A DNA stretch of 58,235 bases. Source: Thermomicrobiales bacterium. GTDB taxonomy: Bacteria; Chloroflexota; Chloroflexia; Thermomicrobiales; CFX8. Under the pieces are notes generated by a model, which was not told the origin of the DNA, searched no databases, and saw only the letters and a program-made list of their open reading frames with translations. Positions 2,853 through 14,026 of the stretch are shown here, piece by piece. Numbering within the stretch: the first letter of the stretch is position 1; each line of letters opens with the position of its first letter. The stretch is taken from assembly GCA_023954495.1 (NCBI GenBank), contig JAMLIA010000012.1:1-58235 (forward strand). Direction: 5' to 3'. Both the position numbers and the translations under genes were made by a program.

Positions 2853-3704
2853 CTAGTCGGCGGCGGAGGCTTCCTGCACGAGCGATGCGCGGAAGCGGTC
2901 GATGCGCTCGTCCATAGGGAGCAGGCTGCACGTCTCGCACTTCTCGCGGCCCGGCAGCCGGTAGTTCAGGCAGCAGCCTGAGCGCACCTGCAGCATCTTG
3001 AGCTTGCCGTCGTGTGCGATCGGCACGACGGCGGCGCGGCGCTTGTCGGTCATGCGGTTGACGAACGCCGGGACCTCAGTTTCGACAACTGCGGGATCGC
3101 CGATAACGTCGCCCATCCAGATCAGTGCCGATACCATGCGATCGACGTAATTCGCACGCATGCCGTTGACGCCATATGGTGCGACCGTGCGCAACGTCGC
3201 GAACATCGGCTCGGCGTGCTCGTCCGTGAATGAAGATGCGATGTAATCGCGCAGGGCGTCAACATCGGGCAGGATCGTCGCGTCGGGGTGGGCTGCGTCG
3301 GGGTCATCCGGGAGCGCATAGAAGCGGCGGGATGAGAAGCGCACGCCGTAGCCTTTGATGTTGAGCCAGGTGTGGGCGGTACTGAGGTCAGGCACGCGTC
3401 GTTCGAGCAACATGCAGGCAGCCGCGCCGAGCATCGGCGGCCAGAAATAGCCGAGCACAAGGAAGCTCGCCGCGATCTGGCGAAATCCTGCGCTCATCTC
3501 GTAGACGTCCTCGACATAATCGAGATAGGACGTGACCATCGCAGGGTCGTGGATCACGTCGCGCGCGCAGATCATGCCTTCGTCGGGCTTACCGAAGCTC
3601 GCCGAGAAGTAGGGCACCTTCTCTGCTGCCCTGGCCATTGTCTCCTCGATCGGCGAACGGGTTGCCTCGTTGCTGGTAGTCTGCACGACTGAGCCTTTCC
3701 TCAT
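2853..3704 (-). CDS. FhuF-like siderophore-iron reductase, (2Fe-2S)-binding
   Basis: A 283-residue soluble protein. The C-terminus carries GCCLNYRLPGREKCETC, i.e. Cys-Cys-x10-Cys-x2-Cys, the 2Fe-2S ligand signature of FhuF ferric-siderophore reductases. The middle part (FLVLGYFWPPMLGAAACMLLERR) fits the FhuF/IucA-IucC C-terminal-like fold. The likely role is reduction of imported ferric siderophore in the cytoplasm so that iron is released. It is the last gene of the leftward iron-uptake operon, 15 bases after the ATPase gene. The ATG at 3704 has a weak ribosome-binding site; a GTG at 3686 is preceded by AGGAAAGG and may be the true start. Confidence 0.85.
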   Translation of the reverse strand: MRKGSVVQTTSNEATRSPIEETMARAAEKVPYFSASFGKPDEGMICARDVIHDPAMVTSYLDYVEDVYEMSAGFRQIAASFLVLGYFWPPMLGAAACMLLERRVPDLSTAHTWLNIKGYGVRFSSRRFYALPDDPDAAHPDATILPDVDALRDYIASSFTDEHAEPMFATLRTVAPYGVNGMRANYVDRMVSALIWMGDVIGDPAVVETEVPAFVNRMTDKRRAAVVPIAHDGKLKMLQVRSGCCLNYRLPGREKCETCSLLPMDERIDRFRASLVQEASAAD

Positions 3705-3719
3705 GGGTCCGGGTTCCGA

Positions 3720-5363
3720 CTATCCGACGAGCAATTCGTCGGCGACCTGCGTGTCCGATCCGGCGACTGAGTAGGGCATGACTAGCGGTCGACCGGTCAG
3801 TGGGTCGGTCATGATCGTCGACTCGATGCCAAACACTTCGCGGACAGTGTCAGTTGTCATGACATCCTCCGGCGCGCCGCTGGAGACGACTCGACCGTCC
3901 TTCAGCGCGACGACGAGGTCGGCGTAGCGCGCGGCCATATTGAGATCGTGGAGGATGACGACGATCGTGCGGCCTTCCTGGCGATTCAGCGCCCAGGCGA
4001 GGTCCAGCAGCTCGATCTGCGCGGCGATGTCGAGGAAGGTTGTTGGCTCGTCGAGTAGCATCACCGGCGTGTCCTGCGCCAGGGCCAGCGCCATCCAGGC
4101 GCGTTGCCGCTGGCCGCCGGACAGTGTGTCGATGTCGCGATCCCGCAACGCACCGATCGCACAGCGCTCCAGCGCAGCCTCCACGGCGACCTCGTCATCC
4201 GAGCGCCACTGATGGAAGATCGACTGATACGGCGCGCGACCGGCTGAGACGAGGTCCTCGACGAGGAATCCGGCCGGAGGCGTTGGTCCCTGGGTGAGCA
4301 GGGCGCACTTGCGGGCGAACTTGCGGTGTGAGCCGCGACAGATGTCGCAGCCATCGAGATGCACCTCGCCCTTGCTCGCCTTGAGCAGGCGGCTGCAGGT
4401 GCGTAGCAGTGTTGACTTGCCGCAGGCGTTCGGCCCGATGATCGCGGTGAACTTACCCGGCGGGAGCGTGAGCGAGATCTGATCCAGAACAATGCGCTTG
4501 CCGTAGCCTGTGCAGATCGAGCGGATATCGAAGCCGGTCGCATCGGTGTGCAGAGCGGCAGGCGCGGAGTTATCCACAACGGCGCTCTGCGGGATGCAGA
4601 AGGGTGCGTCCGTCAGCGGGTGCATGAAAACATCGCAGTTGACGCCGTACAGATCGGACAGCATCTGCGCGTCGAGAACGTCGGCGGGAGCACCGTCGCA
4701 TAGAATGCGGCCGTCCCGCAGCGCGATGATGCGGTCGCTGATCCGGGCTGCTTCATTCACGTCGTGCAGCACCATGACGATGGTCCGGTCGGCCTCGCGA
4801 TTCAGCCGCTGGACCAGCTCGAGGATCTCCATCTGGTGGCGAATGTCGAGGTAGGTGGTCGGCTCGTCGAGCAGCAGCAGCGGCGTGTCCTGCGCGATCG
4901 CCATCGCCATCCAGGCGCGCTGGCGCTGGCCGCCGGAGAGTTGGTCGATCGGTCGGTCTTTGATGTCCTCAATGCCGGTCAGGCTCAGCGCGTTGGCTAC
5001 CGCGTCATTGTCCTGCTGTGAAGGTGGCTGCAGGAACCCCTGGTGCGGGTACCGACCGCGGCGAACGAGGTTCTCAACCGTGATGCCATCTGGCGGAATC
5101 GGTTGCTGCTGCATCAGACCCATGCGCTTGGCGACTTCGCGGGTTGGCAGGCGATGGATCTCCTGCCCATCGAGCAGGATCGAGCCGCCGTCCGGTCGCA
5201 TCAGGCGGGCGAGTGCGCGGAGCAATGTCGACTTGCCGCACCCGTTCGGCCCGAGAATCGTTGTAATCTCGCCCTTGCGAATGCTGGTCGAGAGATCGAT
5301 CACGATCGGATCGGCTCCGTATGACAGCGTCAGATTTGTCGATTGCAGAGTATCCATGTCCAC
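3720..5363 (-). CDS. Siderophore/iron ABC transporter ATPase with two fused ATP-binding domains
   Basis: This 547-residue protein holds two complete FecE/FepC-type ABC domains in tandem. Domain 1 has Walker A GPNGCGKST (38-46), signature LSGGQ (142-146) and Walker B LLLLDEP (to 168). Domain 2 has GPNACGKST (310-318), LSGGQ (414-418) and VMLLDEP (to 440). Each ends with an LHD switch and a similar tail (MHPLTDAPF..P / TDPLTGRPL..P). Normal family members are about 260 residues and act as homodimers, so this is a covalent pair serving one transporter. It follows the two permease genes on the minus strand. Both sites look catalytically intact. Confidence 0.93.
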   Translation of the reverse strand: MDMDTLQSTNLTLSYGADPIVIDLSTSIRKGEITTILGPNGCGKSTLLRALARLMRPDGGSILLDGQEIHRLPTREVAKRMGLMQQQPIPPDGITVENLVRRGRYPHQGFLQPPSQQDNDAVANALSLTGIEDIKDRPIDQLSGGQRQRAWMAMAIAQDTPLLLLDEPTTYLDIRHQMEILELVQRLNREADRTIVMVLHDVNEAARISDRIIALRDGRILCDGAPADVLDAQMLSDLYGVNCDVFMHPLTDAPFCIPQSAVVDNSAPAALHTDATGFDIRSICTGYGKRIVLDQISLTLPPGKFTAIIGPNACGKSTLLRTCSRLLKASKGEVHLDGCDICRGSHRKFARKCALLTQGPTPPAGFLVEDLVSAGRAPYQSIFHQWRSDDEVAVEAALERCAIGALRDRDIDTLSGGQRQRAWMALALAQDTPVMLLDEPTTFLDIAAQIELLDLAWALNRQEGRTIVVILHDLNMAARYADLVVALKDGRVVSSGAPEDVMTTDTVREVFGIESTIMTDPLTGRPLVMPYSVAGSDTQVADELLVG

Positions 5364-6431
5364 CTAAATCCGTGTGTTGTAGCGGTACAGCAACAGCAGG
5401 AAATACGGCGCGCCGACGGCGGCAGTGACAACCCCGGTCGGCAGAGAAACTGGCAGGAAGTGCTGCGCGATTACGTCGGCGACCAGCAGGAAGCAGGCGC
5501 CAAGCACAGCCGAGAACACCATGACACTACCCGACAGTGGGCCGGCAATCATGCGGGCCATGTGCGGGACCATCAGGGCGACGAAACCGATCGGGCCAGC
5601 GAGTGCCGTCGCGATGGCACACAGGCCGCAGCCGACGGCGATGAGGCCGAGGCGCGTGCGCTCCAGCGGCATGCCGAGTCCGCGTGTCACATCGTCGCCG
5701 AGCTGCATCGTGCGCAGTGGCCAGGTCAGCACAATCGCCACTGGCGTCAGGATCGCGAAGCCGATCGCCAGCATGCGGACATCGCCCCAGGTACTGCCGT
5801 AGAGCGAGCCCATTTGCCAGACGACGGCTGGACGCACGATCTCAATTGGGAAGCGGACGATCATCATTGTGATCGCTGCGTTGAGCGTGGCACCGATGCC
5901 GATGCCGACCAGGATCAGGCGAGATGGCGAAATGCCGCCCTTCCACGAGAGCACGTAGATGAGCGTCGCGGTGGCTATTGCGCCGATGAATGCCGCCACC
6001 GGCAGGAGTGCCTGTACCTGGCTGGTGACGATCCAGAAAACGGCAGCCAATGCTGCGCCGGTCTCGATGCCGATGATGTCGGGAGAAACGAGCGCGTTGC
6101 GAACCAGCCCCTGGAAGATCGCGCCGGACATGGCCAGACTGGCACCGATAAACATGGCTGACATCACTCGTGGGAGGCGCAGGTTGCGGACGATCAGCTC
6201 CTGATCAGGAGTACCGTCGCCGATTGCTGCCTTCACAACATCGAGGAACGCGATGTGATAGCTGCCGAGTGTCATCGCCCATGTCCCGACTGCCGCGAGC
6301 AGCATGAGCGTGAGTCCGGCCATCAGCAGCACACGGCCATTGAAGCGCGCTGAGAAGTAGCGGGTGCGGACGACCCGGTGTCGCGCGCGCTGCGACGGGC
6401 CGACGGGCTGGCTGAGATTCATGCCGTCCAT
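5364..6431 (-). CDS. FecCD-family siderophore ABC permease (second subunit)
   Basis: A 355-residue polytopic membrane protein of the BtuC/FecCD family. Family stretches include RNLRLPRVMSAMFIGASLAMSGAIFQGLVRNALVSPDIIGIETGAA and GPIGFVALMVPHMARMIAGP. It forms half of the membrane channel for ferric siderophore or a related chelate. Its ATG overlaps the upstream permease stop (TGATGG), and its stop touches the ATPase start region, so the genes form a tight operon. A nearby ATG at 6422 (MNLSQPV) is an alternative start. Because the partner permease is distinct, the channel is probably a heterodimer. Confidence 0.92.
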   Translation of the reverse strand: MDGMNLSQPVGPSQRARHRVVRTRYFSARFNGRVLLMAGLTLMLLAAVGTWAMTLGSYHIAFLDVVKAAIGDGTPDQELIVRNLRLPRVMSAMFIGASLAMSGAIFQGLVRNALVSPDIIGIETGAALAAVFWIVTSQVQALLPVAAFIGAIATATLIYVLSWKGGISPSRLILVGIGIGATLNAAITMMIVRFPIEIVRPAVVWQMGSLYGSTWGDVRMLAIGFAILTPVAIVLTWPLRTMQLGDDVTRGLGMPLERTRLGLIAVGCGLCAIATALAGPIGFVALMVPHMARMIAGPLSGSVMVFSAVLGACFLLVADVIAQHFLPVSLPTGVVTAAVGAPYFLLLLYRYNTRI

Positions 6432-7477
6432 CAGCCGCGCTCCATAACCGTACGACGCGCCAGATAGATCAGGAATGGTGCGCCAACTAGTGCCGTCATG
6501 ATGCCGACCTGGATCTCTGACGGCCGGAGCAGGATGCGTCCGCTGATGTCCGCGACGGTCAGCAGCAGGGCACCGGCGAGCGCTGAGTACGGCAGAACCC
6601 AGCGGTAGTCCGGTCCGACAATCGAGCGCACGATGTGCGGTGTTGCCAGCCCAACGAACGCAATCGGGCCTGCGATCGAGACGGCTGCGCCGACCACGAT
6701 CACGACCAGCACCGAGCAGATCAGGCGGATGCGACCGGTCTGCATGCCGAGCGCCCGGGCCGAGTCATCGCCGAGGTCCAGCACATTCAGCTGGTGACCG
6801 AGGAACAGCAGAACCAGACTGCCGCCGATCAGGAACGGTGCGAGCGACCAGAACGTGGCGAGATCGCGCCCGACGACGGAGCCGGCCAGCCAGAATCTGA
6901 CAGTGTCCAGCGTGTTCTCATCAAGCAGGAGCAATGCACTCGTCCACGAGCCGAGGAATGCCGACAGGACGACGCCGGCCAGCGCCAGCTTGATCGGTGA
7001 TGCGCCATCCTGGCCCGTCGACCCGATTGCGAACACGAGCAGCGACGCCGCAAGTGCGCCGATAAACGCGAACCAGACGTACTGCGATGGTGTGCTGAGG
7101 TGCAGGTAGTAGGTCACGGTGACGACTGCAAAGGTCGCGCCGCTGCTGACACCGAGGATAGACGGATCGGCGAGGGGGTTGCGCGTGACACCTTGCATCG
7201 TCGTGCCGGCAATGGCCAGCGCGGCACCGACAGCGATGGCGATGACTGTTCGCGGCAGCCGGAGCGTCCGAACGACGGTCTCGTTATAGACGTCGCTGTT
7301 GTAATTGAAGAGCGCGTTCCACGCATCGCGGGTGCTGATGTCGATTGAGCCAATGCGCAGGCTCAGCAGGCCAACAATAATAACTGCTGCAAGGCCGATC
7401 ACCAGGCCGAGACTACGCCAGGCAATGCCAGCGCCATTGACGCGCGCCAGCGGCTGAGCTGGTTGTACTCCCTGCAT
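6431..7477 (-). CDS. FecCD-family siderophore ABC permease (first subunit)
   Basis: A BtuC/FecCD permease of 348 residues when started at the ATG at 7477 (MQGVQPAQPLARV), which is preceded by a GGGAAG-type ribosome-binding site. The frame continues open to 7642 but that extension is not family-like. Conserved stretches include VRTLRLPRTVIAIAVGAALAIAGTTMQGVTRNPLADPSILGVSSGA and GPIAFVGLATPHIVRSIVGP. It is the first gene of the leftward operon and is divergent from the duplicated binding-protein gene, so the 200-base intergenic region should hold both promoters. Confidence 0.92.
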   Translation of the reverse strand: MQGVQPAQPLARVNGAGIAWRSLGLVIGLAAVIIVGLLSLRIGSIDISTRDAWNALFNYNSDVYNETVVRTLRLPRTVIAIAVGAALAIAGTTMQGVTRNPLADPSILGVSSGATFAVVTVTYYLHLSTPSQYVWFAFIGALAASLLVFAIGSTGQDGASPIKLALAGVVLSAFLGSWTSALLLLDENTLDTVRFWLAGSVVGRDLATFWSLAPFLIGGSLVLLFLGHQLNVLDLGDDSARALGMQTGRIRLICSVLVVIVVGAAVSIAGPIAFVGLATPHIVRSIVGPDYRWVLPYSALAGALLLTVADISGRILLRPSEIQVGIMTALVGAPFLIYLARRTVMERG

Positions 7478-7626
7478 TCGCTTCCCGGTCCCCCGTAAGC
7501 TACTCTGCGATCGTCTCCCCAGTTCGACGACCAATCCCGAGCACGCTACTCGGCTATGATATGCCGAACCGATGACCCGGCGCAACGTGTATTGCCATCT
7601 TGGCGACGGGCGTGGCTGGGTTTCCT

Positions 7627-7655
7627 TTGTAAATCCCGACAAATCAGACTATATT
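7627..7655 (+). promoter_or_regulatory. Predicted sigma-70 promoter for the duplicated binding protein
   Basis: TTGTAA (7627-7632) and TATATT (7650-7655) are separated by exactly 17 bases and lie just before the + strand binding-protein gene. The region is AT-rich against its surroundings. A partial dyad CGGCTATGATATGCCG lies near 7552 and could be an iron-regulator site, but it matches no Fur or DtxR consensus I can recognise. Confidence 0.5.
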
Positions 7656-7728
7656 ACTCGGGTATTTAACGTAGGCGGCCATGACCGTGGCCATCATGCG
7701 TGCCAGTGAGAGGGATTCAGAGAACCTG

Positions 7729-9834
7729 ATGAGTGAGAGGGAAAGATCCGTGTTCGTAGGAGGACGGAGATTCAGTCGGCGGAAGCTGCTGGCTGCGATC
7801 CCGGGTGGCTTGCTGCTGGCTGCCGGTCTGGCGGCATGCGGTGGCGATGACGACGAGTCCGGCTCATCGGCGACAGCGACCACAGCCCCTGCCGAGCCAA
7901 CAACCGCTGCCGACACAGCGTCACCAACGACTGCTACATCGCCAACGAGCGAGGCAGTGGCGACAACGTTCCGGCTCATCCCGCTTCCGCCTGAAGAGCT
8001 TGGCGCTCCGCCGGTGCCGGAGGCGGCGGTCTCGACTGCCGAAGGTGCCGTGCCTCACGCTGCTGCGGTTGCCGCGTACGACGACTTCGGCACTGATGCT
8101 GCTCCAGGTGTCTTCCCGCGCATCGTGCGCCACGCCAATGGCGAAACGGAGATCTCGACCAAGCCAGAGCGGGTTGTCGTGCTGGACAGCGGTGAGTTCG
8201 ATTCCGTTGTGAATCTGGGGATTAATCCGGTTGGGACGCTCACCTACGACGTGGAGTTCCTGCCCGAGCATCTCAAGGCACCCTTTAACAATGCAACGCA
8301 TCTGGGCCAGCTGAGCGAGCCCGACATTGAGGCGATTGCCGCACTCAAGCCGGACCTGATCCTCTCCACCAATGTGCGCCACGAAGCGATCTATGAGACG
8401 CTGGCCGCGATTGCGCCGACCGTGTTCGGCATTAGTACCGGTGTCGTCTGGAAGCAGAACTTCGCGTTGCATGCCGCTGCGCTCGGCCTCGAAGAAAAGG
8501 GCGCAACGGTGATCGAAGCGTACGAGGAGCGCGTCCGCGACCTCAACGCCAAGCTGCCAAACCCGCGTCCGACTGTCTCCATCGTTCGGGTGCTCACAGA
8601 CAACCTGCGCTACTACCAGCGGGCGAACTATAGCGGCACACTGCTGACCGACCTGGGTTTGCCACGTCCCGAATCGCAGAACGTCGATGACTTCGCTCTG
8701 TTGAACCAGAGCCTCGAGACGATCGGTGCATCGGCACCGGCTGACTTCATTTATGTCAGCCCGTATGCTGGCGAGCAGGACGATTTCGCCCAGCAGATGC
8801 TGTCGAGTCCGCTCTGGACCGGGCTCGAAGCGGTCAAGGCCGGCAACTTCATGGTTGTCAGCGACGATGTCTGGATGGCCGGCATCGGCTATCGTGCCGC
8901 CGAGCTGATCATGGATGACATTGAGGCGACGCTCGTCGGCCTTGAGGTTGGCTCTGGAGCGACTGATTCGCCATCCGGCGGCTGGACGTTCACCGACGAT
9001 CGCGGCGTCACCGTGTCACTGGCCGAAGCACCGAAGCGGATCGTCGCTCAGACGACATCGGCCGCCGTGCTATGGGATTTCGGTCTCAAGCCGGTCGGCG
9101 TCTACGGCCCGACGGATTTCCAGGCCGGTGACATCAACTTCGACGAGGTCGAGTACGTTGGCGACTACGGCGCGCTTGACATGGAGAAGCTGATCGCCCT
9201 GAAGGCCGACATTTACGTTGACCTGACGCCAGATGGCACCGCCCTCTGGTATCTCTCCGCTGACGAGCAGAAGCGGGTTGAGGCGATCATGCCGACGCTC
9301 GGATTCACCATGCAGGGTGTCTCCGTTCTGACTCAGATCCAGCGCTTCGAGAGTTTTGTTGAAGCGCTCGGCGTTGATCTGAGTTCCCCGGAGCAAGCCG
9401 CCATAAAGTCAGACTTCGACGACGCCGAGGCAGAACTGAAGGACGCCATCGCATCGAACCCGGGCCTGAAGGCCATTGTCATATCGCCGACTCCGGAAGA
9501 GATCTACGTAGCCTCACCCGACTTCATGATCGACATGTGGTATTGGCGTGATCTTGGTCTCGACCTGGTCGAGCCAGAGACTGACGATTACTGGGAGATC
9601 CTCAGCTGGGAGCAGGCGAACAAGTATCCCGCAGATCTGATCCTCGTTGATGCGCGTTCCATCGATCAGCTTGGTGAGCTGGATTCGATCGGGACGTGGA
9701 CCTCGTTGCCGGCTGTGGCGGCGGGGCAGATCGGACCGTGGTACGCCGGTGCACCGTATAGCTACGTGCAGTTGGCACCGACCATGAGGGAACTCGCCGG
9801 CATCATCCGCGATGCCGACGCAAACCTCGTCTGA
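7729..9834 (+). CDS. Lipoprotein with two tandem FecB-like siderophore-binding domains
   Basis: The frame is open from 7681. I prefer the ATG at 7729 (MSERERSVFVGG), which leads into RRFSRRKLL, a twin-arginine-like signal ending in lipobox LAAC-GGDDD. A Ser/Thr/Pro/Ala linker follows. Domain 1 (about 144-430 of the longest frame) begins FPRIVRHANGETEI..KPERVVVL and has IAALKPDLILST. Domain 2 (about 434-717) begins WTFTDDRGVTVSLAEAPKRIVA and has LIALKADIYVD. Each is a full class-III (TroA/FecB) binding fold, whereas normal binding proteins have one. It should be anchored outside the membrane and feed the divergently encoded permeases. Confidence 0.9.
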   Translation: MSERERSVFVGGRRFSRRKLLAAIPGGLLLAAGLAACGGDDDESGSSATATTAPAEPTTAADTASPTTATSPTSEAVATTFRLIPLPPEELGAPPVPEAAVSTAEGAVPHAAAVAAYDDFGTDAAPGVFPRIVRHANGETEISTKPERVVVLDSGEFDSVVNLGINPVGTLTYDVEFLPEHLKAPFNNATHLGQLSEPDIEAIAALKPDLILSTNVRHEAIYETLAAIAPTVFGISTGVVWKQNFALHAAALGLEEKGATVIEAYEERVRDLNAKLPNPRPTVSIVRVLTDNLRYYQRANYSGTLLTDLGLPRPESQNVDDFALLNQSLETIGASAPADFIYVSPYAGEQDDFAQQMLSSPLWTGLEAVKAGNFMVVSDDVWMAGIGYRAAELIMDDIEATLVGLEVGSGATDSPSGGWTFTDDRGVTVSLAEAPKRIVAQTTSAAVLWDFGLKPVGVYGPTDFQAGDINFDEVEYVGDYGALDMEKLIALKADIYVDLTPDGTALWYLSADEQKRVEAIMPTLGFTMQGVSVLTQIQRFESFVEALGVDLSSPEQAAIKSDFDDAEAELKDAIASNPGLKAIVISPTPEEIYVASPDFMIDMWYWRDLGLDLVEPETDDYWEILSWEQANKYPADLILVDARSIDQLGELDSIGTWTSLPAVAAGQIGPWYAGAPYSYVQLAPTMRELAGIIRDADANLV

Positions 9835-10084: not shown

Positions 10085-10113
10085 TTGACCATGCGCATGC
10101 GTGGTGTTATCCT
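10085..10113 (+). promoter_or_regulatory. Predicted promoter of the LysM-M23 gene
   Basis: TTGACC (10085-10090) and TATCCT (10108-10113) are 17 bases apart. Transcription would begin near 10120, which supports the ATG at 10137 rather than the GTG at 10101 as translation start. A short dyad (ACCA..GC / GC..TGGT, 10089-10106) overlaps the spacer and might be an operator. Confidence 0.45.
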
Positions 10114-10136
10114 CGTGGTGGGTGTCCGTACACCCT

Positions 10137-11903
10137 ATGGAGCGTGAAGACGACGCCGATTCTGATGCATATTCCGTGCGGAGACGTCGCCCCGAACGAC
10201 ATCGTGTGGGGTTGATGCTCTGGGGATGGAGTGGTCGAGTGGACCTACGAGACTGGGGATCGCGAGATCCGGATAGCGGGACCGGCCGATCGCGTTCGGG
10301 CGGCTTGGCCGGAGCGACGACATTGACGCCGTTCATCCCGCAGTTCGAGTGGTCGCCGGAGTCGCCGGATTTCCCGCTGCCATTCCCGGGCGGCGCTGAA
10401 CGCGCGGCAGTTGCTGCACACGCGGCTGGTGATGTGCGACCTGGCGCTTCGTTGGAGGAAGTCTTTTCAACAACGCCGAGCTGGATGAAGCTAGCCCCGG
10501 TGGCTCTGCTGCTCTTCGCGGTGACAGCGTTCGCCGCCTGGCAGCTCCTTGGCACTGATGACAACAGCCCGCCAGCGACCAGCACCGTTGGCACATCCGC
10601 CCTGTCGACAACCGAGACCAACGGCTCAGCCACACAGCGCCCAGGTGCAGGCGGCGCTGAGGCCAGCCCGACTGGCGGATCTGCGGTGGCGGGCTCGACC
10701 AGCCAGGCAACGGCAGACTCAACGGCCACCAATGGCGAAGGCGAAGTCGGTGAGGGCGAGACCGGGACCGGATCATCTGCACCCGGCACCGATGGGACGC
10801 AGGCACCGATCGTCGCGCAGACCGTTGACGACGGTGAGTCGCTGGCGGATGTCGCACGGACGTGGGGACTGAACGTCTCGACCCTCGTTTGGGCGAATCC
10901 GGACATCGACGATCCGACGGCCCCGCTCGAAGGTGGTACGTCCATTTCGGTCCCAGTCGTCGATGGTGTGACCTACACCGTCCAGGACGGCGACACGCTG
11001 GAATCTATCGCGGCGCAGTTTGATGTCGACACATCGGCAATCACGGGTGTCATTCAGAACGGCGTGGCGTCGAGTGCCGATCTGCAACCCGGCTCGACTA
11101 TCACGATCTACAATGCCCGGCCAGTGAGTCGTCCGACAGTTGCGCACTATACCGTGGCCAAGGGTGATGATCTGTGGAAGATCGCCAGCTTCTACGGCCT
11201 GAATCCGGTCACAATCGCCGTGGCGAACGACTTGCCGGACGACTACCTCATCTACCCGGATCAGGTGCTGGTCATCCCGCCGGCAGACGGTATTCTCTAC
11301 ACCGTACAGGCGGGCGAAAGCGTCGAGACGATCGCCGCAGCCTACAACGTCGCAGCAGACGTCATCATCAACTTCCCGTTCAACAATCTGTCCGCCGGAC
11401 AGACGCTGCAGGTCGGACAGCAGATCCTGATTCCGACGGTCGACCTCTCCAACGCTGCCGGTGGCAAGGGCGGTGTCGATGTTGGACCGGCCCAGGACCC
11501 ATTCGCGGAGACGGCTCAGGCGACGGGTGCGGCTGAAGCAACGGGAACATTCATGTGGCCGGTCACCGGAACCGTTACGACTGAGTTCGGCGGTGGCCAC
11601 AACGGCCTCGATATCGCCAACGTCGCCTGGACGCCGATCGTTGCTGCAGATGGTGGCGTCGTGACCTTCTCCGGCTGGAACGAGTTCGGCCTGGGCTACG
11701 CCGTAGCGATTGACCACGAGAACGGCTACGTCACGTGGTACGGCCACATGGTCGAGCCTCCGGCAGTGAAGGCAGGCGATCGCGTCAGCCAGGGACAGTG
11801 GCTCGGAAGCATGGGCTCGACGGGCAAGTCGACCGGCCCGCACCTTCACTTCGTGGTGCTGCACAACAGCATCTACGAGAACCCACTTCAATACCTGCCA
11901 TAA
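10137..11903 (+). CDS. Membrane-anchored LysM-repeat M23 peptidoglycan endopeptidase
   Basis: A 588-residue protein from ATG 10137. It has a charged cytoplasmic N-terminus, one membrane helix (LAPVALLLFAVTAFAAWQLL), and a long Ser/Thr/Gly/Ala linker. Four LysM-like repeats follow; each starts near YTVxxGDxLxxIA (first copy QTVDDGESLADVA; then YTVQDGDTLESIA, YTVAKGDDLWKIA, YTVQAGESVETIA). The C-terminal M23 domain has metal ligands GGGHNGLDIA and HLHF. Such enzymes cut peptide cross-links in the wall, or activate amidases if inactive; here the HxxxD and HxH ligands are present. It precedes mreBC, in keeping with a wall-growth role. Confidence 0.9.
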   Translation: MEREDDADSDAYSVRRRRPERHRVGLMLWGWSGRVDLRDWGSRDPDSGTGRSRSGGLAGATTLTPFIPQFEWSPESPDFPLPFPGGAERAAVAAHAAGDVRPGASLEEVFSTTPSWMKLAPVALLLFAVTAFAAWQLLGTDDNSPPATSTVGTSALSTTETNGSATQRPGAGGAEASPTGGSAVAGSTSQATADSTATNGEGEVGEGETGTGSSAPGTDGTQAPIVAQTVDDGESLADVARTWGLNVSTLVWANPDIDDPTAPLEGGTSISVPVVDGVTYTVQDGDTLESIAAQFDVDTSAITGVIQNGVASSADLQPGSTITIYNARPVSRPTVAHYTVAKGDDLWKIASFYGLNPVTIAVANDLPDDYLIYPDQVLVIPPADGILYTVQAGESVETIAAAYNVAADVIINFPFNNLSAGQTLQVGQQILIPTVDLSNAAGGKGGVDVGPAQDPFAETAQATGAAEATGTFMWPVTGTVTTEFGGGHNGLDIANVAWTPIVAADGGVVTFSGWNEFGLGYAVAIDHENGYVTWYGHMVEPPAVKAGDRVSQGQWLGSMGSTGKSTGPHLHFVVLHNSIYENPLQYLP

Positions 11904-11924
11904 CGCTGGGGTACCAGGGAGGTG

Positions 11925-11963
11925 GGCACGAGCGAGACCGGCAGCAGCCGTCTCGCTTGTGCC
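11925..11963 (+). terminator. Hairpin terminator after the M23 gene
   Basis: GGCACGAGCGAGAC (11925-11938) pairs with GTCTCGCTTGTGCC (11950-11963) with one G-U pair over an 11-base loop, 22 bases after the stop codon. A GATTTCTG tail follows. It separates the M23 gene from the mreB leader. Confidence 0.65.
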
Positions 11964-12035
11964 GATTTCTGCGTGCTGCCCGAATACGCCGTGATAGACT
12001 TCTGCGGTGCCCTCCACGTGGACGGTACCTGTTTT

Positions 12036-12058
12036 CCGCGATCTGACGCGGATTTTTT
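12036..12058 (+). terminator. Short intrinsic terminator/attenuator in the mreB leader
   Basis: CCGCG, loop ATCTGA, CGCGG, then ATTTTTT form a compact textbook intrinsic terminator only 49 bases before the mreB ATG. A second small hairpin (TCGCC..GGCGA near 12070-12086) lies between it and the gene. Placed after the M23 terminator, it may attenuate mreB rather than end the previous gene. Confidence 0.6.
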
Positions 12059-12106
12059 GATGCTGACCTCGCCTTCATGAGGCGATCATTCTGAGGTTTC
12101 CGCACG

Positions 12107-13165
12107 ATGATCCGGCCCCTGAACTACTTCTTTGGCCTCTTCAGTCGGGATCTGGGGATCGACCTCGGGACCGCAAATACGCTTGTCTACGTCCGAGGCA
12201 AAGGGATCGTGATCTCTGAGCCTTCCGTCGTCGCGATCGATACCAAGTCCAAGCGCGCGTTGGCCGTTGGTGTTGAGGCGAAGGCGATGGTCGGGAAGAC
12301 GCCCGAAGCGATCGTCGCGGTGCGACCGTTGAAGGATGGCGTCATCGCCGACTTCGACACGGTCGAGCTAATGCTGCACTACTTCATCGAGAAGGTTCAC
12401 GTTCAGCGCATCATGGCCCCGCACCCGCGTGTCGTCATCGGCATTCCGTCTGGCGTAACCGAAGTTGAGAAGCGCGCAGCCAAGGACGCGGCGCTCTCTG
12501 CCGGCGCTCGCGAGGCGTACACGATCGAGGAGCCGATGGCGGCGGCGATCGGCGCAGGGTTGCCGATCAATGAGCCGGTCGGCAGCATGATCGTCGACAT
12601 CGGCGGCGGCACAACTGAGGTGGCGGTCGTTTCACTGGGTGGCATCGTCGTCAATCATTCGCTGCGCGTCGCCGGTGACGAGATCGACGAAGCGATCATC
12701 CAGTACGCTCGCCGCGACCACAATCTCGTAATCGGGGAGCGGACAGCGGAGAACGCCAAGATCGCCGCCGGATCAGCCTATCCGCTGGAAGAAGAGCGCC
12801 GCGTGACATTGCGCGGCCGCGACCTGTTGACCGGTCTGCCCAAGTCAGTCGAAGTCTCTAGCGTCGAGATCCGCGACGCGATCAGTGGGCCAGTGAACAT
12901 GATCGTCGATACCGTGAAGACCTGTGTCGAAGAGACGCCGCCCGAGCTCGTCGCCGACATCATGGAGCAGGGCATCATCCTCGGCGGCGGTGGCGCACTG
13001 CTGTTGGGGCTGGATCGCCGCTTGCAGTCCGAGCTGCGCATGCCGGTGCGTCGAGCTGAGGATCCGCTGACGTGCGTGGCGCGCGGAACCGGGCGGGTCG
13101 CCGAGGCGTTGCATCTGTATTCCAGGGCGCTGGCCAGCGGCCAGGAACTCCGGCGAGGGGTTTGA
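12107..13165 (+). CDS. mreB: MreB rod-shape actin homologue
   Basis: A 352-residue protein with the MreB/Mbl signature throughout. Phosphate-binding motifs are DLGIDLGTANTLVY near residue 15 and VDIGGGTTEVAVVSLGG near 165, with GIILGGGGALLLGLD near the end as the adenosine site. MreB assembles into membrane-bound filaments that guide the elongation synthesis complex. Its usual length is 330-350, so it is complete. mreC follows 6 bases after the stop, then murT and gatD, forming one operon. No mreD or rodA/pbp2 gene is adjacent. Confidence 0.97.
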   Translation: MIRPLNYFFGLFSRDLGIDLGTANTLVYVRGKGIVISEPSVVAIDTKSKRALAVGVEAKAMVGKTPEAIVAVRPLKDGVIADFDTVELMLHYFIEKVHVQRIMAPHPRVVIGIPSGVTEVEKRAAKDAALSAGAREAYTIEEPMAAAIGAGLPINEPVGSMIVDIGGGTTEVAVVSLGGIVVNHSLRVAGDEIDEAIIQYARRDHNLVIGERTAENAKIAAGSAYPLEEERRVTLRGRDLLTGLPKSVEVSSVEIRDAISGPVNMIVDTVKTCVEETPPELVADIMEQGIILGGGGALLLGLDRRLQSELRMPVRRAEDPLTCVARGTGRVAEALHLYSRALASGQELRRGV

Positions 13166-13171
13166 GTCCGG

Positions 13172-14026
13172 GTGTTTTCCCTGTCAGCTACGGCACGACG
13201 CAACCTTGCGGTCATCGCAGCGGTTGTCGTCGCAGCGCTGTTGTTGATGTTCGCCGACACGCGCGGCTTGCTTGATGCTCCGAAGCGCCTGGCCGACAAC
13301 GTCGTTTCGCCGGTGAGCAGCGCGCTGACTTCGCTTGGCATGGGGATCGGCAAGGACAATCCGGGCGGCGACCCGACGCTGCGCCAGCAGCTCGATGAGG
13401 TAACCGCCGAGCGCGACGCGTTGCTGGCGGAGAACGCAAAGCTGAAGGAGCTTTCCAGCGAAGTCGAGAACCTTCGTCAGCAGCTCAACTTCCAGGAATC
13501 CCGGCCCGACCTCACCTACGTCACCGCCGAGGTCATCAGCCGCGACCCGGAGAGCCGCGAGAAGTTCGTCATCATCAACCGCGGATCGAACGATGGGTTG
13601 CAGATCGGCATGGCCGTCGTCAGCCCCAACTTCCTGGTCGGCCAGATCACTGAGGTTGAAGCGAACCGCGCCAAGGTACTGTTGATTATCGACTCCGGCT
13701 TCCAGACGGGCGGGCGGCTGCAGATGGCGCGTGCCGAAGGCATCGTCTACGGGCTCTGGCAGGAGGGCGGGCGCGTCGAGATGCGTCACATTCCGTATGA
13801 TGTCAACATCGACGATCGCGAGGTTGTCGTCACCTCCGGCAAGTCGGCCGGTATCCCCGAAGGTCTCGTTGTCGGCAAGGTGATGGAAATCAAGAAAAAT
13901 CAGGCACAGAACGAGACGGTCGTCGAGATCCTGCCGCTGGTCAACTTCGAGAATCTGGAATCGGTGACGGTCATTACCGGCACGACTCCTGCTCAACCAC
14001 AAGAACAGGCGACACCCGGCACATGA
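13172..14026 (+). CDS. mreC: MreC rod-shape-determining protein
   Basis: A 284-residue protein starting with GTG at 13172. It has a short N-terminus, a single membrane helix (NLAVIAAVVVAALLLMF), a coiled coil (about residues 70-110, LRQQLDEVTAERDALLAENAKL), then the two beta-barrels of MreC (VINRGSNDGL-type turn IINRGSNDGLQIGM, LLIIDSGFQTGGRL). In known systems it connects MreB with PBP2 on the outer face of the membrane. The stop overlaps the murT ATG (ATGA), so translation is coupled. Confidence 0.95.
   Translation: MFSLSATARRNLAVIAAVVVAALLLMFADTRGLLDAPKRLADNVVSPVSSALTSLGMGIGKDNPGGDPTLRQQLDEVTAERDALLAENAKLKELSSEVENLRQQLNFQESRPDLTYVTAEVISRDPESREKFVIINRGSNDGLQIGMAVVSPNFLVGQITEVEANRAKVLLIIDSGFQTGGRLQMARAEGIVYGLWQEGGRVEMRHIPYDVNIDDREVVVTSGKSAGIPEGLVVGKVMEIKKNQAQNETVVEILPLVNFENLESVTVITGTTPAQPQEQATPGT

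Follow-up and report, generated by a model that had tools for sequence, protein, structure and literature searches.

A putative siderophore importer with a single-chain ATPase pair and a two-headed receptor in a Thermomicrobiales bacterium

Gene content of the locus

The window analysed here is the whole 58,235-nucleotide stretch of contig JAMLIA010000012.1 from a Thermomicrobiales bacterium (assembly GCA_023954495.1). Near its left end lies a cluster of genes with the hallmarks of siderophore uptake (Table 1). Read from right to left on the minus strand, the genes of the operon encode FecCD permease 1, FecCD permease 2, a fused ATPase and a FhuF-type reductase. The gene for a two-headed lipoprotein is divergent from this operon. 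An earlier note on this DNA had the span and the architecture right, including the two permeases as separate genes, the ATPase with two sets of Walker A, LSGGQ and Walker B motifs, and the lipoprotein with two FecB-like domains in about 700 residues, but it did not mention the reductase gene.

Table 1. Features of the uptake cluster, in positions of the window
Feature	Position	Strand	Evidence
FhuF-type siderophore-iron reductase, 283 aa	2853..3704	-	PF11575, E 2.8e-6, above cut-off
Fused ATPase (NBD-NBD), 547 aa	3720..5363	-	two PF00005 stretches
C-terminal ATPase half, residues 279-533	3765..4529	-	Walker A GPNACGKST
N-terminal ATPase half, residues 1-262	4578..5363	-	Walker A GPNGCGKST, Q-loop, LSGGQ, Walker B, H-loop
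FecCD permease 2, 355 aa	5364..6431	-	PF01032, E 1.4e-84
FecCD permease 1	6431..7477	-	PF01032, E 1.8e-100
Divergent intergenic region, ~200 bp	7478..7680	.	between divergent genes
Two-headed siderophore-binding lipoprotein, 717 aa	7681..9834	+	two PF01497 stretches, single open frame
Tat-like lipoprotein signal and tether	7681..8100	+	sequence
N-head, residues ~145-420, YfiY/FecB-like	8113..8940	+	PDB 3tny (YfiY), E 4.5e-50, residues 149-418
C-head, residues ~428-717, DesE-like	8962..9831	+	PDB 2x4l/6enk (DesE), E 2.2e-45, residues 424-712

The sequence features of a type II (BtuCD/FhuBC-type) siderophore importer are present here: FecCD permeases, an ATPase of the FecE/FepC/FhuC type and a class-III receptor. 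The open frame of permease 1 extends to position 7642; because the codon-position G+C of 7478-7642 is not coding-like, the gene probably starts at the Met near 7477. The intergenic region that this leaves probably holds the promoters of both transcription units. The one pattern for a DtxR-like iron box that was scanned gave no match in the window. Since the receptor is transcribed from the opposite strand, its co-regulation with the operon is only assumed. On the other side of the receptor gene, positions 10101-14026 adjoin the cluster and encode a protein with LysM and M23 peptidase domains, followed by MreB-like and MreC-like frames, the last two recognised by eye.

The reductase carries the C-terminal CC-x10-C-x2-C 2Fe-2S motif (CCLNYRLPGREKCETC, at residue 244). 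It is filed as FhuF-type only, because the full FhuF equivalog model, TIGR03951, scores 23.3 bits, below its cut-off of 63.85. Orthologues with 47-49% identity adjoin the same operon at three related loci (L093, L095 and L096), and the position of the gene points to a reductive release of iron in the cytoplasm. The reductase neighbour varies among the relatives, with FhuF in some and an SIP-type protein in others. At two loci of relatives that have no FhuF neighbour (L067, 6156-7133, and L097, 12757-13578), the gene for a SIP-type FAD siderophore reductase is divergently oriented to the operon, as though one reductase had replaced the other.

The fused ATPase

Both halves of the ATPase have FecE/FepC as their best NCBIfam match. 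The Walker A motifs are at residues 38 and 310, the LSGGQ signatures at 142 and 414, and the Walker B motifs at 162 and 434, each followed by an H-loop LHD. The ATP-site motifs (Walker A, Q-loop, signature, Walker B and H-loop) are intact in both halves, so that two working ATP sites are to be expected. In the bacterial order to which the window belongs, the fourth Walker A position is Ala in every C-half checked and Gly in every N-half; the C-half motif reads GPNACGKST, or GPNASGKST in two proteins. The signature among the fused ATPases is LSGGQ, or ISGGQ in two C-halves. An AlphaFold2 model of the fused ATPase, made from one sequence, had a pLDDT of 38 and was discarded.

A BLAST-type search found double ATPases in 13 of 158 genomes of the class, and all 13 belong to the window's own order, for which 61 genomes were covered; in one of them (G407) the gene is cut by the contig end. 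Beyond the order, 301 sampled genomes of the phylum yielded no further fused ATPase, and a scan of genome contigs with the fused ATPase returned single-domain or unrelated ATPases only. For distant phyla, a profile built from three fused ATPases was used, which had no match in the Pseudomonas phylum (299 genomes) or in an Acidobacteria phylum (199 genomes), with no positive control in either. Fused ATPases were, however, present in 4 of the 73 genomes of one Bacillota class, the fourth case (G988) being a 617-aa frame with both motif sets. The tandem ATPase is thus found in few clades only among the surveyed genomes of several phyla, in keeping with the earlier remark that the arrangement seems unusual. 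An assembly artefact as the source of the ATPase fusion was rejected, because 17 genomes share this architecture. When the ATPase was compared with plasmids by tblastn, both query halves aligned to one target domain, and the coverage counts were disregarded.

The position of permease 2 next to and upstream of the fused ATPase is conserved in the relatives, and the same order, permeases and then fused ATPase, is kept in relatives of two phyla wherever the flanks can be read. The other three Bacillota carriers are of one order (L140, L143 and L144, in genomes G938, G979 and G982); the same two permeases precede the gene in L140 and L143, and L144 meets a contig edge.

The two-headed receptor

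The receptor begins with a Tat-like signal in which SRRKLL precedes the lipobox LAAC (Cys53), and continues as a low-complexity tether of 87 residues (54-140). The two heads that follow are separated by a linker of ~10 residues. An artefact is unlikely as the source of the fusion, because the frame is continuous and both heads have coding-like composition. Each head aligns from end to end with solved class-III receptors, at moderate identity to the structures, which agrees with the class-III fold that had been ascribed to both domains. For the N-head, YfiY comes first among the solved relatives and SirA next (E 1.3e-29). Among the matches listed for the receptor, DesE is the only chain whose best stretch falls in the C-head at an E threshold of 0.01. 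The two heads are only 24% alike (E 1e-5) and have different best solved relatives, so the earlier view that they differ strongly is upheld.

In importers of the BtuCD/FhuBC type, docking of the receptor on the permease pair relies on a single Glu at the tip of each lobe. Both heads have one Glu per lobe, E217/E346 in the N-head and E502/E644 in the C-head, aligned with Glu in YfiY and DesE; from what is known of the family, we take these positions to be the docking sites on BtuC-type permeases. As for ligands, YfiY recognises schizokinen, and DesE is a receptor of desferrioxamine B and E (PMC13293324).

Proposed mode of uptake

The reading that we prefer, with a probability of about 0.72, is that the cluster encodes one obligate-heterodimer importer of the type II BtuCD/FhuBC kind, whose two-headed receptor would bind two ferric siderophores of the hydroxamate type. 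The two different FecCD permeases would form the obligate heterodimer, and a single-chain pair of FecE-type ATPase domains, with both ATP sites presumably within one molecule, would power the pump. The receptor, predicted to be exported by Tat and anchored by lipid, would carry its two different heads at the end of a long, flexible tether. The probable ligands of the N-head are citrate-hydroxamate siderophores of the schizokinen type, and those of the C-head are ferrioxamine-type siderophores. With a linker of some ten residues between the heads and a tether of 87 behind them, the geometry suggests one head at a time on a single docking face; the heads probably dock in turn on one permease, such that one pump serves two ligands. 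Ferric siderophore uptake by this importer is predicted to be ATP-driven, after which FhuF probably reduces the iron and frees it in the cytoplasm. No NIS synthetase of the IucA/IucC family was found in the genome, which suggests uptake of foreign siderophores. The stoichiometry proposed in the earlier note, a FecCD heterodimer with a covalent ATPase pair and a two-headed receptor, fits the sequence, and its suggestion that one receptor may accept two ligands gains support from the match of the heads to different characterised receptor types.

A different division of labour, in which only one head delivers to the permease and the other is a store or co-receptor for iron or apo-siderophore, seems unlikely to us. 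It has a precedent in FpvC and FpvF, two binding proteins that act in complex for one ABC transporter, FpvDE (PMC6954188), and in relatives, too, the operon has multiple receptor genes next to it. However, the two heads resemble siderophore receptors of a single class, and each keeps both lobe-tip Glu residues, and FpvC is reported to chelate ferrous iron, which the best relatives of neither head do.

Origin of the fused parts

The earlier note had described both the ATPase and the receptor as internally duplicated. For the ATPase, the likeness of the halves is real (45.8% identical over 251 aa, E 1e-82), but a duplication is doubtful, since each half has a higher identity to some single-domain ATPases (52.8 and 54.0%) than the two halves have to each other. 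In a tree with single-domain ATPases, the N-halves form one clade (100/98.7) and the C-halves another (100/99.4), each with Chloroflexota and Bacillota together; the tree left out two long-branch rows, and with them in, the C-half clade is less firm. Because these clades are separate and well supported, the fusion appears old. The pattern fits one ancestral fused gene, spread by deep inheritance or by transfer between Chloroflexota and Bacillota, and the Bacillota occurrence likewise suggests that the system is either old and shared or was passed from one phylum to another. A tree constrained to keep all halves in a single clade comes at a cost of 8 lnL units (p-AU 0.057), which is not a firm rejection. 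Together with the closeness of the halves to single ATPases, this cost makes a fusion of two different genes the favoured origin over internal duplication, short of proof.

The heads of the receptor have separate relatives as well. Single DesE-like genes in two genomes (G382 and G380) are 58-59% identical to the C-head and group with it in the receptor tree (100/97). They share a locus with the same permeases, fused ATPase and FhuF, and a different receptor gene stands at the other end of that locus. In G407, two adjacent DesE-like genes lie beside the operon. Single-gene relatives of the N-head occur in G419 (contig C53, 46% identical), with which it groups in the tree (99/98), and in G383 (contig C19); in G372, two N-head-like single genes adjoin a related system whose ATPase is single. 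Since each head is more similar to single-domain proteins encoded by genes of their own than to the other head, a simple duplication of the receptor, as had been claimed, is not supported; as far as its sequence tells, the receptor is a joining of two already different receptor types.

It is therefore improbable that both proteins arose by simple internal duplication and that the second copies are redundant. The 46% identity of the ATPase halves would agree with such an origin, and one relative, G002, does have a recently duplicated receptor: it spans at least 605 aa, its two heads are similar (56% identical), and it lies beside a fused permease-permease protein. In the window, by contrast, the heads belong to different clades, each with single-gene kin, and the relations of the ATPase halves given above also speak against it. 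The G002 locus (L068, 3-3436, contig C382) thus combines a receptor of two similar heads with FhuB-type fused permeases, a different choice of fused parts within the same family.

The pairing of a YfiY-type with a DesE-type head was seen in this genome only, among 61 of the order. In another genome (G004), the same fused-ATPase operon is accompanied by a 658-aa receptor that is built from other heads, and strongly supported branches of the receptor tree force at least 5 changes of label. Two-headed receptors thus arose more than once in the family, and the joining of heads seems to be a recurrent habit there. One plasmid record with at least 80% coverage of the receptor by tblastn was rejected as a further case, as it holds two separate adjacent genes.

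Other DesE-like sequences were noted in passing. The genome of the window has two more, one interrupted by a TAA stop (G000:C1:1533-2357, L072) and one cut at a contig end (G000:C126:6-350, L073). In G001, a relative from the same family (contig C163; L070, 5826-6999), a DesE-like receptor runs over two overlapping frames, which may be a frameshifted gene or an assembly error.

The separate relatives of the heads also bear on a shuttle inside one protein, in which the heads would exchange iron or ligand before delivery, a thought already voiced in the earlier note: the linker would keep the heads close, but there is no sequence evidence of an inter-head interface and the DesE-like head is separate in relatives, so that contact is not needed there, and we consider the idea very improbable. 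Similarly far-fetched is a combined scheme in which the heads swap iron between ferrioxamine-type and citrate-hydroxamate siderophores and each permease has its own motor half, giving an ordered, asymmetric cycle.

Comparison with known importers and implications

The importer with one pump and two ligands, as preferred here, has parts in common with several known systems. FhuBC/FhuD and FecBCDE share with it the FecCD fold, ATPases of the FecE/FepC type, a PF01497 receptor and the FhuF reductase, but their ATPase has a single domain and is present in two copies, and their receptors have one head. In FhuB the fusion joins the permeases, whereas the present cluster keeps these apart and joins the ATPases. 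DesE of Streptomyces coelicolor and YfiY of Bacillus cereus each match one head over its full length; they are separate proteins, while here both types are found in one polypeptide behind one lipid anchor. Importers of the GlnPQ type have tandem binding domains and thus more than one receptor domain per transporter. GlnPQ is, however, an amino-acid transporter of a different fold class, with its binding domains fused to the permease instead of held by a lipid anchor. Two ATPase domains in one importer chain are also seen in mycobacterial DppD (PDB 8wd9) and Rv1281c (PDB 8j5q), which are of the oligopeptide importer class and not FecCD-type. FpvC and FpvF of Pseudomonas aeruginosa likewise provide two binding proteins per ABC transporter (PMC6954188), but as separate, unfused proteins in a system with periplasmic iron release. 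Double ATPases in other importer classes, fused FhuB permeases and two receptors per transporter are therefore already known. In a limited, partial search of the literature, neither a fused FecE-type ATPase nor a two-headed class-III lipoprotein was found to have been described.

A single-chain ATPase pair in a FecCD-type importer fixes the identity of each motor half. This would permit mutation site by site, to ask whether the ATP sites and the permeases differ in their job, which is hard in the homodimeric BtuD and FhuC. The occurrence of the receptor parts as separate genes in relatives is direct evidence of two siderophore receptor types tied to one pump. For the little-studied Chloroflexota, the assignment of the heads offers concrete ligand predictions for iron uptake.
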